Shown piece by piece: positions 55,857-62,477 of a stretch of DNA of 64,000 bases. This stretch comes from Bacteroidia bacterium (GTDB lineage Bacteria; Bacteroidota; Bacteroidia; B-17B0; Aurantibacillaceae). The number at the start of each line of letters is the position of its first letter. Within the stretch, counting starts at the first letter, position 1. A program made the position numbers and the translations under genes. Under the pieces are notes generated by a model that made no database searches, was not told the DNA's origin, and saw nothing but the letters and a program-made list of their open reading frames with translations. The stretch lies in assembly GCA_016787445.1 (NCBI GenBank), contig JAEUTQ010000076.1:1-64000 (forward strand). Direction: 5' to 3'.

Positions 55857-57865
55857 TGAAATTACGCGGCACATATTTGTTGTTTTTAATTTTCATTGGA
55901 TTTCTGGTGAAATCACAAACTCAATCTGTATACGCGAAGTTTTGGGTAAAAGAAAAAGAGATTTTATTGCGCTGGGCACCATCTTCAAAAGCTGTGTTTG
56001 ATGCCGGAGTTAAGAACGGTTATAAAATCACACGAACAGATAACACAGGAAACACGGTTGTTGTAGCAGAAGCGATTAAACCCTATGAGAAAAATAATGA
56101 AGCCTGGAATTCAATATTGAAAGCTAAAGATGGAGCTGTATTAGCTGTGAGCGTGCTTTACGATATGGTTAGTCTTGCATCTGATCCAAAGAAGAAACAA
56201 GAACAACAAATGATGGTTTATAATATGATGTTGTTGAGTTGCAATTTTGATTCGGAGATTGCTAAAGCTTGTGGTTTATTCTTTTCTGATAAGAATATTG
56301 ATAATTCTAAAACCTACACCTATAAAATTTCGATTAATACAATGCCACAAAGTAGTTTATCAATTCAAGTGAATGCAAATGTTTTGTCGAAGCATCCGGT
56401 AATAAATAATTTACAAGCTTGGCTTAGGAACAAAAATGTTAAGCTTCGTTGGAAAGCAGCAACATATAAGCAAGATTTCACAGCGTATAATATTGAAAGG
56501 AGTGAGGACAGTATAAATTATACTATTATAAATAAATCGCCAATTATTTTAATGGCATCGGAGTTTGAAAAGAAGAAAGAAGATATTTATTACCTGGATA
56601 CTTTTCCTAAAACCAAACAAAAATATTACTACCGTATAAGAGGTTTGAATCATTTTGGGGAATTATCCGAACCATCGAACGTTGTAGCAGGCATTGGCTA
56701 TGAACCACTCAGATCCTTTCCCGTATTCGATACAATTCATACAGTAAAAAACCTAACGGTGTACATGCGTTGGCGTATGGCAGATAAATCGGAGAATGCT
56801 TACCCAAAGAGTTATTTTATCAGTCGAGCAATGAAAGATGCAGGTCCCTATGAAATCATTCACCAATCTAATACATCATATGAATTTACCGATGTGAATC
56901 CTAAACCCGTTAATTTTTATAAAGTAGGAGTTATATCGTATGGTGGCGATACATTACAATCCTATTCTTATATGGCATTAATTAATGACACCATTCCTCC
57001 TTTACCGCCTACAGGATTAAAAGCAAAAGTAGATGCAAAAGGTAATGTCACGTTAACTTGGGATAAAAACGCCGAGCCGGATGTTCAAGGATACAAAATT
57101 TTCAGGTCAAATGCCTTGCACGAGGAGTTTGTTCAAATCAATAATGAATTTGCACGAGAGCCAAAATATCAGGATAAATTAAATTTAAAAACACTGAGTA
57201 AAAAAGTGTATTACTGTGTAAACGCTACCGACAAACGTTTTAATAACTCCGAACTTTCAAAACCGGTCGAAGTGAAACGTCCGGATACCATTGCACCGGA
57301 GAAACCCATTATTAATAATTTACAACTCAAACCAAATGGAATTTTAATTGAATGGATTAACAGCAACAGTGAAGACGTGAAATATTACGTGTTGTACCGT
57401 CAGCCTGAGAATTCACAAACAGAGGAAAAGCTCAAAGAGTGGCAAGCTAAGGATACACTTAAATTCTATCTCGATACGAATTTAATGATGGGAGCCGGTT
57501 ACCGTTATAAATTAGTGGTAAGTGATGAAGATGACAATATTAGTATTTCAAACAATCCATACATACGTTATGAAACCGGATATAGAAAAAAATTAACCAC
57601 TGTAAAATATAGTGTCGATCGTACAGCAAAGACCGTAACTTTAAATTGGGAGTATAATTATCCCAAATCAGAAATAGAGAAATACATTATATATCGTTGT
57701 AAAAAAGGCGGCGCTTTAACTATCATTAAAACCTTACCGGGCACAGCCAATTCATTTGTAGATAAAACTCTGTTTATGGGAAATATTTACGAATACCGTA
57801 TTAAACCCGTTTTCACCAACGGCGCTGAGGGCATTATTAGTGATGGGGTGGAAGTGGAGTATTAG
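55856..57865 (+). CDS. Exported fibronectin type III repeat protein, third gene of cassette
   Basis: 669 residues with signal peptide (MKLRGTYLLFLIFIGFLVKSQ). After a unique ~140-residue N-terminal part come about five fibronectin type III-like domains to the C terminus, each with the WxxxxxxDVxGYxIxR pattern (WDKNAEPDVQGYKIFRSN, WINSNSEDVKYYVLYRQP, WEYNYPKSEIEKYIIYRC). It ends VEVEY without a T9SS domain. Coupled to the upstream gene by a one-base TAATG overlap. Probably a surface or periplasmic scaffold acting with the two preceding products. A decayed copy of its 3' end lies at 61152-61205. Confidence 0.85.
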   Translation: MKLRGTYLLFLIFIGFLVKSQTQSVYAKFWVKEKEILLRWAPSSKAVFDAGVKNGYKITRTDNTGNTVVVAEAIKPYEKNNEAWNSILKAKDGAVLAVSVLYDMVSLASDPKKKQEQQMMVYNMMLLSCNFDSEIAKACGLFFSDKNIDNSKTYTYKISINTMPQSSLSIQVNANVLSKHPVINNLQAWLRNKNVKLRWKAATYKQDFTAYNIERSEDSINYTIINKSPIILMASEFEKKKEDIYYLDTFPKTKQKYYYRIRGLNHFGELSEPSNVVAGIGYEPLRSFPVFDTIHTVKNLTVYMRWRMADKSENAYPKSYFISRAMKDAGPYEIIHQSNTSYEFTDVNPKPVNFYKVGVISYGGDTLQSYSYMALINDTIPPLPPTGLKAKVDAKGNVTLTWDKNAEPDVQGYKIFRSNALHEEFVQINNEFAREPKYQDKLNLKTLSKKVYYCVNATDKRFNNSELSKPVEVKRPDTIAPEKPIINNLQLKPNGILIEWINSNSEDVKYYVLYRQPENSQTEEKLKEWQAKDTLKFYLDTNLMMGAGYRYKLVVSDEDDNISISNNPYIRYETGYRKKLTTVKYSVDRTAKTVTLNWEYNYPKSEIEKYIIYRCKKGGALTIIKTLPGTANSFVDKTLFMGNIYEYRIKPVFTNGAEGIISDGVEVEY

Positions 57866-57875
57866 TTGTTTTTTT

Positions 57876-58031
57876 TTAATCTTTAACTAATAAGTTATTT
57901 ATTAAAGAACCATCATTAAATAAAATAGTAATTTGATAAACTCCAGATGCAATGAAGTTAGGAATTTCTAAATTAATGTTTGAAGAATTAATATTTTTAA
58001 ATTCTAAAACAATGGCAGCAAAATTATTTAT
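57876..58031 (-). pseudogene. Severed T9SS sorting-domain tail
   Basis: On the minus strand a ~50-codon open stretch without start codon encodes the tail half of a T9SS type A sorting domain (INLEIPNFIASGVYQITI, then GSLINNLLVKD and stop). It opens just after a stop at 58032 and overlaps the end of the TonB receptor gene in another frame, so it is not part of that protein. It is best read as the 3' remnant of a T9SS cargo gene whose body was lost when the receptor cassette arrived. Confidence 0.65.
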
Positions 58032-60588
58032 TTATTTCCCATGTCAGCGAAAAATAATATAATCCGCCTACTGAAGAGCCTCCAAGTATGGTATAGTATG
58101 GCTTATTAAGAAAATTTGTTGCACCCAACTTCGCAGATAATCCTGCCTTTTCAAATTTGTAGTTTATTTGAGCGTCTATTGTCCAGTAGGAAGGAACTTC
58201 GCCACTTACAAGAAAAGAAACATAATCATATTTTGTTTGGTAGCGCCCTGTTATACTTGCTCCTAATTTTTTCCAAATATTTTCCGTAAGAATAATTCCA
58301 TTCAAATTTATAAGTGGGGTGTTAAAGCCATCTTCAAGCCCATCTTTATCATCTGTTCGGTCAAGTTTGGAATATGTTATGTTGCCGATGAAAGAAAAGT
58401 TGTCGTTGTACCGATATTTTAGCCCCAAACTTGCTCCATAATTATAAATTTTGCTTTTAGAATTAGTCCATAGTCGGTAACGACTTTGTTTTAATTTTGA
58501 ATATAAGTAAGTTGGAATTGAATCTGAATTTGTTGTATTCGGTATACTTGATTCAACTTGTGCTATAAAATTATCGTAAGAATTATAGTAAAAATCAACA
58601 TCAATTAACAAACTCTTTTTTATTGCAAGACCCCTAAATCCGAATTCAAATGAACGTACAAATTCTGGTTGCAAATAGGTATAGGGGTTTTTTTTGAGCA
58701 TGCCCTTATTGTTTTCAATTGCCTGCGCTTGTGTTAAGCCAATCGTATTCATGTCTTTTGTAACCTGTGCCTGAAATGCGTCAATAGACGCTTTAGTATA
58801 TGAGTTTTCAAAAACTCCAACCGACATTATTTTTAATCCACCAACCCGTTTTACTCCACCACTATTTACATTTGAGAAGCCTTCAAAAATACTTGGGAAA
58901 CGATAACCACTTTGATATGATGCTCTGAAATTAATTGCTTCTTCTGGAGAATATATCGCTGTAACTCTTGGATTAAATTTCCAATTAAAATAGTCTGCTT
59001 TGTCCGCACGAATTGTAGCGCTGATGCGTAATTTCTTGTTGAACAGATCTTTGTTTAATTGAATAAATCCTCCTGATTTGGCATATGTTAGATTTTTTGC
59101 AGAATCAACAGGGTTAATAAAATAGTTGCCGTCAGGAATAATAATATAGGTTCTATAATCAAATCCACTTAAAAGTTGTGTACCAATTTTATTAAAAAAT
59201 TCAGGAAACAATTTACCCCAATTTAATAAGCCTTCTGAATGAATTAAACTCGATTTAACTCTGAGGGCAGCACCATAATCCCAATTATTAATATTGGTCA
59301 ATTTATCTTTTTTTTGATTGTAAGCATCTGTACCAGGTTCAAATCTGCCATTATCCGAATTTTCTCTTGCTATTTTATGTGCACCCGCAACACTTGCGCC
59401 ACCAGCTATTGCATTATTATATGCGGTTGTATAGTCAGCAAACCATTGATTGTCCGATTTAAATGAGCGATCCATGTTTTCCGCAAGAGAACGTAAATTG
59501 TACGATTTTCCAGTGTTTTCTTGAGTGAGATAAGCACGTACCTGAAAAATATTTGTATTATAATCAAGCGCGTATTGATGCAGTGTATAATCCTCCAATC
59601 TGAAACGGTTTGAACGTTGGTAAATATTGTTTATTAATGCGCCCTTATATGTTAAAGATAATTCGCGACCTTCCTTCGGCCGATAAACTAAACCAAAGTC
59701 TCCTTTATAATTTTGAATGTTGTATTCAGTAATATCAATTTCCCTATAACCAGTTCTTGCAACAACATATTTTTTTCCGTTTAATGTCAATGTCTTTCTG
59801 TTGGAAGATTCATTTCCGTAACTATTTACTTCATCAAAAGCAGGATTGTCTACGCCAAATAAATTTGTGGATGAGTTTAGTGTGGGTGCAAGGTCAGTTC
59901 TATTATCGGAAATCCAATCATTGCCGTTTGTATAGGAAGCATTGATTTTAAAAGCAAATTTAGAATTCAATACTTTTGCGTATCGTAAATTAGTTGTACT
60001 GTATAATTGAGGAGAAACATTGTCAATATTTCCAACATGATTTACTCCTGTCAATTGTTGAAAGCTTAAACCTTGGTAGGTAAATGGGTTTTTAGTACGG
60101 ATGTTTGCCAAGCCGTTAATTGCATTTAAACCATATAAAGCAGAAGCGGTCCCCGGAATTATTTCAATTTTATCAATATCAAGGTCGTTCGCACCTAGTA
60201 CATTCGCAATCGGTGCGCCAATATGAGGAGCCTGATTATCTATTCCATCAATTAATTGTGTAAAGCGAACATTGGTTGTATTAGAAAAACCTCTCGTGTT
60301 TATTACTTTAAATCCTAAACTGGGCGTAATCATTTGAACTCCTTTTGTATTCTCAATTGCATCAAAGCAAGTTGGTGCCCCCATGTTTTTAGCATCGGTA
60401 TATTTTAGTTGTTCAATGCTAACAGGAGAACGTAGAATTGATTCGGGTATGCGTGAAGAAGAAATAACTACTTCATTTAGTATAAGATGTTTGGTACTGT
60501 CTGGAAGTAAAGATAAACTATCAGTTTTTGTCTGCCCCAAACTGCTAATTGAAATCAGTGCCGAACTTATAAGAATTAATATCTTCAT
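58024..60588 (-). CDS. TonB-dependent outer-membrane receptor, ModE-linked
   Basis: An 854-residue receptor. The signal peptide (to ISSLGQ, ~19) is followed directly by the plug domain (~35-165: LNEVVISSSRIPESILRSPVSI, INTRGFSNTTNVRFTQLIDG, IEIIPGTASALYGLNAING) and a ~680-residue barrel ending in YYFSLTWEINK. It lacks the carboxypeptidase-like N domain of the other receptor in this window. A ModE-box-like 24-bp site lies 14 bp before its ATG, and a ModE-like regulator gene lies just upstream. Uptake of molybdate/tungstate or a metal chelate is a fair inference, not shown. Confidence 0.9.
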   Translation of the reverse strand: MKILILISSALISISSLGQTKTDSLSLLPDSTKHLILNEVVISSSRIPESILRSPVSIEQLKYTDAKNMGAPTCFDAIENTKGVQMITPSLGFKVINTRGFSNTTNVRFTQLIDGIDNQAPHIGAPIANVLGANDLDIDKIEIIPGTASALYGLNAINGLANIRTKNPFTYQGLSFQQLTGVNHVGNIDNVSPQLYSTTNLRYAKVLNSKFAFKINASYTNGNDWISDNRTDLAPTLNSSTNLFGVDNPAFDEVNSYGNESSNRKTLTLNGKKYVVARTGYREIDITEYNIQNYKGDFGLVYRPKEGRELSLTYKGALINNIYQRSNRFRLEDYTLHQYALDYNTNIFQVRAYLTQENTGKSYNLRSLAENMDRSFKSDNQWFADYTTAYNNAIAGGASVAGAHKIARENSDNGRFEPGTDAYNQKKDKLTNINNWDYGAALRVKSSLIHSEGLLNWGKLFPEFFNKIGTQLLSGFDYRTYIIIPDGNYFINPVDSAKNLTYAKSGGFIQLNKDLFNKKLRISATIRADKADYFNWKFNPRVTAIYSPEEAINFRASYQSGYRFPSIFEGFSNVNSGGVKRVGGLKIMSVGVFENSYTKASIDAFQAQVTKDMNTIGLTQAQAIENNKGMLKKNPYTYLQPEFVRSFEFGFRGLAIKKSLLIDVDFYYNSYDNFIAQVESSIPNTTNSDSIPTYLYSKLKQSRYRLWTNSKSKIYNYGASLGLKYRYNDNFSFIGNITYSKLDRTDDKDGLEDGFNTPLINLNGIILTENIWKKLGASITGRYQTKYDYVSFLVSGEVPSYWTIDAQINYKFEKAGLSAKLGATNFLNKPYYTILGGSSVGGLYYFSLTWEINK

Positions 60589-60602
60589 GTTATTTTATTT
60601 AA

Positions 60603-60626
60603 CGATATGTTTGTAAATGAATAACG
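60603..60626. promoter_or_regulatory. ModE-box-like operator of the TonB receptor gene
   Basis: A 24-bp site opening CGATAT and closing ATAACG, so the outer six bases of each arm match with one mismatch. As recalled, the E. coli ModE operator is also 24 bp with CGTTAT and ATAACG arms. It lies between the regulator gene and the receptor gene, 15 bp before the receptor ATG. Confidence 0.5.
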
Positions 60627-60641
60627 ACAATTAAAAAAATA

Positions 60642-60989
60642 TTACATCGTCAATTTATTTGTTTCATTTTCTATGAATATCCTTACTTTATTTTCCAATG
60701 TTTGAAATGTTTCTATTGCTTGAAAACCTGCTTTAGTAACGATTGCTCCACCACCACTTTTTCCTCCAAGTTGTTTCTCAACTAAAGGAGAATTTGATCG
60801 CGCATTCATTTCGGCAACCATTTGCCAAGCTTGTCGATAAGACATTTTCATTTCTTTGGCTGCATTTGCTATTGAACCAGTTTTTATTATTCTTTCAAGC
60901 AATTCCACACGACCAATACCAAGAAATTTATTTTCTCCTGCATAGAACCATATTCTGAAACTAACATTGTATTTAATTTTCTTTTTCAT
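60642..60989 (-). CDS. ModE-like winged-helix regulator without molybdate domain
   Basis: 115 residues from the ATG at 60989 (TTG at 60992 is less likely). It matches the LysR-type N-terminal domain of ModE: LGIGRVELLERIIKTGSIANAAKEM, SYRQAWQMVAEMN, and the wing LGGKSGGGAIVTKAG. The C-terminal TOBE/Mop molybdate-binding domains of E. coli ModE are missing, a form common in Bacteroidota, so the ligand must bind elsewhere or be different. Its gene abuts one 24-bp ModE-like site and precedes another before the TonB receptor, suggesting autoregulation and receptor control. Confidence 0.85.
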   Translation of the reverse strand: MKKKIKYNVSFRIWFYAGENKFLGIGRVELLERIIKTGSIANAAKEMKMSYRQAWQMVAEMNARSNSPLVEKQLGGKSGGGAIVTKAGFQAIETFQTLENKVRIFIENETNKLTM

Positions 60990-61013
60990 CAATATGTTTT
61001 ATAAAGCATATCG
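60990..61013. promoter_or_regulatory. 24-bp palindrome upstream of the ModE-like gene
   Basis: Arms CAATATGTTTTA and TAAAGCATATCG are reverse complements at 10 of 12 positions. Same 24-bp length and CGATAT/ATATTG-type arms as the site before the receptor. It directly abuts the regulator ATG, so binding there would block its expression. Confidence 0.55.
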
Positions 61014-61297
61014 CAAAATAAGGTATTCTATTCACGACAATTTATGATATAAATCATCGTTTCAAAAGTAAAGTGCAGGAAGGTGAATTTTTTGGCGCGA
61101 GTTATGGTTATAAATGAGTGTTGTTAATAATAAAAAATGGCACTAAGCGGTTTTCCCACCGGCGTCGATGGTATCTTTAGCGTTGGGGCAGATGTGGAGT
61201 ATTGATAGCGTTTTGTTAAAGAATAAATTTAGGTAGTACTATAAAGGATCATTTAGTATTGAACAGGTTTATGACCTAGCTATTAGCCGTGTTTACA
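61014..61297. other. Intergenic region with FNR-like palindrome
   Basis: 284 bp without a supported gene. ATGAT-ATAA-ATCAT at 61044-61057 has the half-site spacing of FNR/CRP-type operators and lies about 60 bp before the ModE-like gene start. The right half contains the FN3 remnant annotated separately. Confidence 0.4.
61137..61205 (+). pseudogene. Decayed copy of the fibronectin-gene 3' end
   Basis: The 54 bases at 61152-61205 align without gaps to the last 54 bases of the fibronectin gene (57812-57865): 38 of 54 identical. The reading frame gives FPTGVDGIFSVGADVEY against FTNGAEGIISDGVEVEY, 9 of 17 identical, both ending at a stop. Upstream the match continues only with indels. A 22-codon ATG frame covers it, but it is more likely debris than a gene. 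Confidence 0.55.
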
Positions 61298-62028: not shown

Positions 62029-62217
62029 ATGAATAAAGGAACAGTAAAATTTTTTGACAGCGCAAAAGGATTCGGATTTATTAAAGGTGAAGACGGACAA
62101 GAGATATTTGTGCACGTATCAGGATTAATAGATGATATTAACGATAATGATGAAGTTACATACGACACGCAAGAAGGCAGAAGAGGCTTGAATGCAATCA
62201 ATGTGAGCATAGCTTAA
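62029..62217 (+). CDS. Cold-shock domain protein, first of tandem pair
   Basis: 62-residue CspA-type nucleic-acid chaperone. RNP1 (KGFGFI) and RNP2 (EIFVHVSG) are intact on the usual five-strand barrel. It shares 43 of 62 residues with the next protein. A long structured leader suggests cold or growth-phase control of translation. The C-terminal end is RRGLNAINVSIA. Confidence 0.93.
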   Translation: MNKGTVKFFDSAKGFGFIKGEDGQEIFVHVSGLIDDINDNDEVTYDTQEGRRGLNAINVSIA

Positions 62218-62283
62218 TCAAACAGGAGAATAATTAAAATAATTAATAAGTAAAAACGCCACCGGTAGGTGAGTACACAACAA

Positions 62284-62472
62284 ATGAATAAAGGAACAGT
62301 AAAATTTTTTAACGAAACAAAAGGTTTCGGATTTATCAAAGGTGAAGATGGGGAAGAAATCTTCGTTCACGCAACAGGACTTATACACGAGATTCGTGAA
62401 AATGACGAAGTAACGTATGATCGAGAAAGAGGCAAAAAAGGCTTTAACGCGATAAACGTAACAAGAGTTTAA
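62284..62472 (+). CDS. Cold-shock domain protein, second of tandem pair
   Basis: 62 residues from ATG at 62284, aligning exactly with its twin; an in-frame GTG at 62269 would add five residues. RNP1 KGFGFI and RNP2 EIFVHATG are present. It differs mainly in charged surface positions (YDRERGKKG against YDTQEGRRG). It lies 66 bp after the first csp gene, likely co-transcribed, and ends at a terminator. Confidence 0.93.
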   Translation: MNKGTVKFFNETKGFGFIKGEDGEEIFVHATGLIHEIRENDEVTYDRERGKKGFNAINVTRV

Positions 62473-62477
62473 ATAAT

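Follow-up and report, generated by a model that had tools for sequence, protein, structure and literature searches.

A TonB-dependent receptor paired with a single-domain ModE regulator in Bacteroidota is a candidate outer-membrane molybdenum importer

We analysed a receptor-regulator pair on the minus strand of a 64-kb stretch of DNA (the whole of which is called the window below). Read along this strand, an FNR-type palindrome is followed by a 24-bp palindrome (site B), a gene for a small ModE protein, a second 24-bp site (site A) and a gene for a TonB-dependent receptor (TBDT):

61044..61057, no strand: FNR-type palindrome TGAT-N4-ATCA, at -68 from the regulator ATG, a possible activator site
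60990..61013, no strand: site B, a ModE-box-like palindrome of 24 bp (10/12) that abuts the regulator ATG and may serve autoregulation
60642..60989, minus strand: small ModE of 115 aa with an ATG start, consisting of the DNA-binding domain only (profile and PDB matches)
60603..60626, no strand: site A, a ModE box of 24 bp, exact to CGWTAT-N12-ATAWCG and 14 bp ahead of the receptor ATG
58024..60588, minus strand: TBDT of 854 aa, the candidate outer-membrane molybdenum importer

The first-pass annotation of this DNA had described a ModE DNA-binding domain that lacks the molybdate-binding part, encoded upstream of a TonB receptor, and domain searches agreed with it. The regulator has the winged-helix DNA-binding domain of the ModE family, although its score against TIGR00637 (ModE_repress; E 1.6e-24, residues 24-103) is 85.8 bits and lies below the cut-off of 98.5; it also matches PDB 2ijl and 1b9m (E. 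coli ModE). Only the HTH was found in the 115-aa protein by domain searches, with no Mop/TOBE molybdate-binding part, and judged by its sequence it is a single-domain and not a full-length ModE. A separate Mop sensor was also sought genome-wide, and no TOBE domain was found anywhere. In the receptor, both PF07715 (Plug) and PF00593 (barrel) scored above cut-off, and all matches in a fold search with its structure model were TBDTs.

The structure model is of moderate quality (mean pLDDT 65.4, residues 1-133 below 50), too weak to reveal a binding site, and its PDB matches are TBDTs in general; assigning the cargo from structure was given up. A haem receptor was also rejected: TIGR01785 (TonB-hemin) was the best named relative, yet it scored 80.7 bits where the cut-off is 316.85, and there is no haem context. 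By profile, the nearest solved relatives are Cir, PhuR and a pyochelin receptor, in each case over the plug only.

Both 24-bp sites of the earlier reading, one ahead of the receptor and one abutting the regulator ATG, were recovered at these positions. Site A (CGATATGTTTGTAAATGAATAACG) has a palindrome score of only 7/12, and site B has one mismatch to CGWTAT-N12-ATAWCG. In the 64-kb window, the two box matches found with at most one mismatch are not significant (shuffle mean 0.83, two or more in 24/100 shuffles). The strict pattern occurs at three places in the whole 3.77-Mb genome, and the reversed control pattern at none. All three precede genes of the ModE-regulon type, namely the receptor or Moco genes. 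One is site A. Another lies directly ahead of the mobA/moaD ATG, with the gene for a second small ModE on its other side; this Moco cluster (locus L007) comprises moeA, modE, mobA/moaD, moeB, moaE, moaC-moaB and mog. The last stands 2 bp ahead of the ATG of the first gene, coding for hemerythrin, in an operon that includes moaA (L008). Boxes with one mismatch show no genome-wide excess (32 versus 35 for the control), so a site of this kind is accepted only where its position or conservation backs it; both back site B, and no regulon member is claimed here from one-mismatch boxes alone. One such box (L007, 3330-3353) precedes a TauE/SafE permease gene of the L007 Moco locus, and the sister genome G052 has it unchanged (L061).

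The modE-receptor pair was found in several relatives, with receptor identities of 82% in a Kiruna MAG (L043), 70-73% in Flavobacterium and its family (L044-L047, L050-L052) and 51-57% in three other families of the class (L057, L058, L059, L066). F. ajazii also has the pair, and in Flavobacterium species like G107, G308 and G402 it occurs without ModA. The neighbours of the pair in L043 differ from those in the window. The receptor box reads CGTTATTCATTTACAAACATATCG in the window, CGGTATTCATAATAATACATATCG in L043 and CAGTATTCATTTTAAAACATACTG in L044, L046, L051 and L052, with L045 differing by one base; elsewhere it takes E. coli-like CGTTAT...ATAACG forms, and the orthologous receptors of five further lineages retain a box at their start. 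For site B, a counterpart abutting the modE ATG (CGGTATGCTTTCGATTGCATATCG) is present in L043. Thus, of the two sites proposed earlier, the receptor site is kept in homologues, whereas conservation of site B is confined to this closest relative.

To survey these features, we examined 395 Bacteroidota genomes, in which receptors of at least 1180 bits stand clear of the paralogues, which reached at most 878 bits. The ortholog group comprises 14 copies in 13 genomes, 12 of which contain a small ModE, compared with about 25 of the 395 genomes overall. In ModE-bearing genomes, 17 orthologues were tested for a widened box (C[AG][AGT]TAT-N12-ATA[ACT][CT]G, at most one mismatch): 12 from the survey, four from fetched loci and the second copy of G457. 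The box was present at the start of 16, the sole miss being that second G457 copy. The box is kept in G473, G276 and G335, where modE and receptor are not neighbours; in G335 it sits past the first ATG, ahead of a later possible start. It is absent ahead of the orthologue in the ModE-less G386 and ahead of all 17 paralogues examined (orthologues versus paralogues, Fisher p 1.5e-8, not corrected for shared descent). Because the box was widened after the Flavobacterium sites had been seen, the cleanest evidence is provided by the strict-pattern matches, in the window, G252 (L058), G300 (L059), G473 and G276. A tree with four sampled paralogues sets the orthologues apart (94/93, an open fork). 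The receptor gene has the conserved box of a ModE-regulon target ahead of it, and by sequence it belongs to a Mo regulon.

Molybdenum genes were looked for around the homologues, as the first-pass annotation had suggested, and were found: modE and Moco genes lie beside orthologous receptors, and modABC beside a related regulator. In G386, the receptor gene is part of an operon, moaA-receptor-moeA-tauE-moeB-moaE-moaC (L123); upstream of this operon are encoded a molybdoenzyme of the xanthine-dehydrogenase type, XdhC proteins and a MobA-like protein. A small ModE of G256, which shares 58% identity with the window regulator, adjoins modABC, and a Mop-like protein takes the place of the receptor (L049). 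G043 and G046, which belong to the same family as the window genome, have a box and a small ModE ahead of modA-like, permease and ABC genes (L062, L060), and the ATPase beside the G046 ModE is nearest to WtpC. The window genome itself makes Moco and nitrate reductase, with MoeA and NarG both present, and narG and narH lie downstream on the same contig as the L007 Moco cluster. These links, to modE and Moco genes and not to haem or cobalamin genes, support the earlier proposal that the pair may form an oxyanion or metallophore uptake module.

Additional genes were observed near the small ModE in some genomes. The operon extends further in several Flavobacterium loci, where it also encodes a di-haem peroxidase-like protein, a small Oxidored_molyb protein or a TBDT of a second type. 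The second TBDT type is shorter (about 665-686 aa; L044:12653-14650, L047:3147-5141, L053:134-2182, L055:8313-10373) and has the same box in L044 and L053. The Oxidored_molyb proteins (PF00174) are small, secreted or lipoprotein-like, and follow modE or the receptor (L044:15882-16397, L046:7079-7672, L048:8343-8813, L055:10396-11052); that of L048 stands alone behind a ModE-box-like site, and in G429 such a protein alone follows modE, behind CAGTATTCCTTTAAAAACATATTG.

Although MoeA is present in all 21 genomes tested, including that of the window, no modABC was found in the window genome. A direct search of it for the ModA/WtpA type of binding protein (SBP_bac_11/PF13531) gave no match, with controls matched in 14/14 genomes. 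Only two ABC-importer-type permeases were found in it, and the one examined has a BPD_transp_1_N domain, as peptide-type permeases do. The permease of the Moco locus (L007:3330-4151, G000:C62) has a PF01925 TauE/SafE domain in a Moco/ModE context. TauE lies inside moeA clusters of seven genomes (G402, G308, G107, G429, G174, G254 and G145), and boxes ahead of tauE are exact in G276 and have one mismatch in G335. The TauE group occurs in 11/14 ModA-less and 1/7 ModA-bearing genomes (Fisher p 0.016, uncorrected, in genomes chosen by ModE). The ModA-less G473, G158 and G252 lack the TauE group, and another inner-membrane route must therefore exist there. TauE/SafE permeases thus recur in Moco-biosynthesis clusters (L007:3330-4151 and L123, L128-L131, L135-L137), mostly of ModA-less genomes and in some cases with ModE-box-like sites, and are candidates for an inner-membrane molybdate permease.

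An FNR-type palindrome lies ahead of modE in the window (-68), L043 (-68) and L055 (-70). Elsewhere in the window genome, TGAT-N4-ATCA sites are located ahead of the narG operon, narK, tauE and hemerythrin-moaA, and between divergent moeA and crp-type genes. The count in the window alone is not significant, whereas on L007 and L008 the sites are enriched (0/200 simulations reach the counts). It is likely that they mark an anaerobic regulon, and they would fit induction in nitrate-respiring cells. The positions noted were 9999, 11240, 12054 and 3314 on L007 and 3361, 3461, 10115 and 17909 on L008, and the genes preceded by such sites are those of nitrate respiration, Moco and nor type as well as modE.

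Considering the regulon and operon context together, we infer that the receptor is a TonB-dependent molybdenum transporter, and the pair is quite probably a Mo-responsive unit for outer-membrane uptake in which a ModE-repressed TBDT imports molybdate or its chelate, with TauE/SafE as the probable inner-membrane step. E. coli ModE represses at modABC, and boxes at start codons would suit a repressor that blocks transcription. With sufficient cytoplasmic Mo, both modE and the receptor gene would be repressed by the small ModE, bound to the 24-bp boxes at their start codons. When Mo is scarce, perhaps together with an FNR-type signal of nitrate-respiring conditions, modE and the receptor would be expressed, and active transport by the TBDT would then bring molybdate, free or chelated, through the outer membrane. 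The inner-membrane step would probably be taken by the TauE/SafE permease of the Moco locus, whose gene has a separate ModE-box-like site ahead of it, since no ModA/WtpA-type ABC importer was found. A wider proposal, that Bacteroidota have a complete ABC-free Mo route with a TBDT in the outer and TauE/SafE in the inner membrane, both under Mo-sensing Mop-less small ModEs, is more tentative, and we give it slightly less than an even chance.

Several points were weighed against this explanation. Molybdate is small enough for porins, and the need for a TBDT is thus not obvious. ModA and the receptor co-occur in G288, G300 and G457, the second receptor copy of G457 has no box, and the three genomes named above lack both ModA and the TauE group.

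One variant of the uptake explanation is that the cargo is not the free oxyanion but chelated Mo, bound to a catecholate or other 'molybdophore' that is either the cell's own or scavenged. TBDTs mostly carry chelates, and Cir, PhuR and the pyochelin receptor are the nearest profile relatives, if by the plug only; against this, neither the window nor the related loci read show metallophore synthesis genes next to the pair. We regard this variant as a serious contender that nevertheless falls somewhat short of even chances. That the receptor imports some other compound needed or used by molybdoenzymes (an organic substrate, haem or iron chelates), with ModE doing no more than co-regulate it, is unlikely: E. 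coli ModE also acts on molybdoenzyme genes and the best, weak family match is TonB-hemin, but orthologues retain the ModE box despite differing neighbours, no haem or iron genes are linked, and the G386 copy is flanked by moaA and moeA, near tauE. Tungstate as the cargo, with the regulator in effect a tungstate or Mo/W regulator, seems less probable still; discrimination between Mo and W is often lacking in ModE-type proteins and oxyanion transporters, and the WtpC-like ATPase beside the G046 ModE would fit, but the linked enzymes, NarG and the xanthine-dehydrogenase-type protein of G386, are normally Mo enzymes. Finally, the idea that the 24-bp sites look like ModE boxes by chance, and that the pairing is functionless, is rejected as extremely improbable: the window count and the genome-wide one-mismatch count are indeed not significant, but the strict pattern is specific (3 versus 0) and the box is kept ahead of linked and unlinked orthologues and absent ahead of paralogues.

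Compared with known systems, the Mo-responsive uptake unit proposed here combines familiar parts. E. coli-type ModE controls modABC through the box consensus ATCGNTATATA-[N6]-TATATANCGAT (PMC545781). The window regulator resembles it in its homologous DNA-binding domain, in box ends CGnTAT...ATAnCG within the same 24-bp frame and in Mo-gene targets; it differs in that the two molybdate-binding domains are missing, a principal conserved target is a TBDT and the genome has no modABC that we could find. A DNA-binding domain alone is also seen in PDB 2ijl and in the single-domain ModE of Desulfovibrio, whose sites ahead of modABC are of the form CGGTCACG-[N14]-CGTGACCG and whose mode of Mo sensing was left open (PMC545781), whereas the boxes here are E. 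coli-like and precede a TBDT and Moco genes. With copper OprC, catecholate Cir and PfeA and cobalamin BtuB the receptor shares a Plug, a 22-strand-type barrel fold and a TonB-box-like start, but identities in the fold search are 9-14%, and it differs from them in its ModE regulation and its predicted oxyanion or oxyanion-chelate cargo. Mo supply is placed under ModE in the related G256, G043 and G046, like that by ModABC/WtpABC/TupABC importers, whereas a ModA/WtpA-type protein is absent from the window genome.

The only outer-membrane path for molybdate met in our search of the open-access literature is T6SS-ModA-IcmP of P. aeruginosa. It is described (PMC8602904, citing Wang et al. 2021) as an anaerobic molybdate uptake system with an outer-membrane protein, IcmP being an insulin-cleaving metalloproteinase that works with secreted ModA. 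The two cases share an outer-membrane protein in molybdate uptake (here a proposed one), but a TBDT would take that part here, in a genome where no ModA was found. The same open-access search returned no TBDT for molybdenum and none as a conserved partner or target of ModE. ModE boxes, single-domain ModE proteins and TBDTs are already known; new in the literature searched is a TBDT as a conserved ModE target. A previous survey reported 278 Mo-using bacteria without ModABC, WtpABC or TupABC and suggested further uptake systems (PMC6147048), and the locus offers two candidates for such organisms, the TBDT and the TauE/SafE permease, with relatives in culturable Flavobacterium. If the reading is true, molybdenum would join the known cargo of TonB-dependent receptors; the locus also prompts one to ask how Mo is sensed by a ModE that has no molybdate-binding domain.

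Some minor observations were made around the cassette. No Rfam RNA, including the Moco riboswitch, was found in the window, L007 or L008, and no close receptor orthologue in the plasmid and phage collections searched. To the right of the cassette, 61145-61206 resembles 57812-57865, the 3' end of the left-hand gene (FTNGAEGIISDGVEVEY* and SGFPTGVDGIFSVGADVEY*), a hint that the cassette was inserted or that a paralogue is decaying. Further on, at 62030-62475, the window contains two small cold-shock-like genes in tandem with near-identical starts (MNKGTVKFF...).
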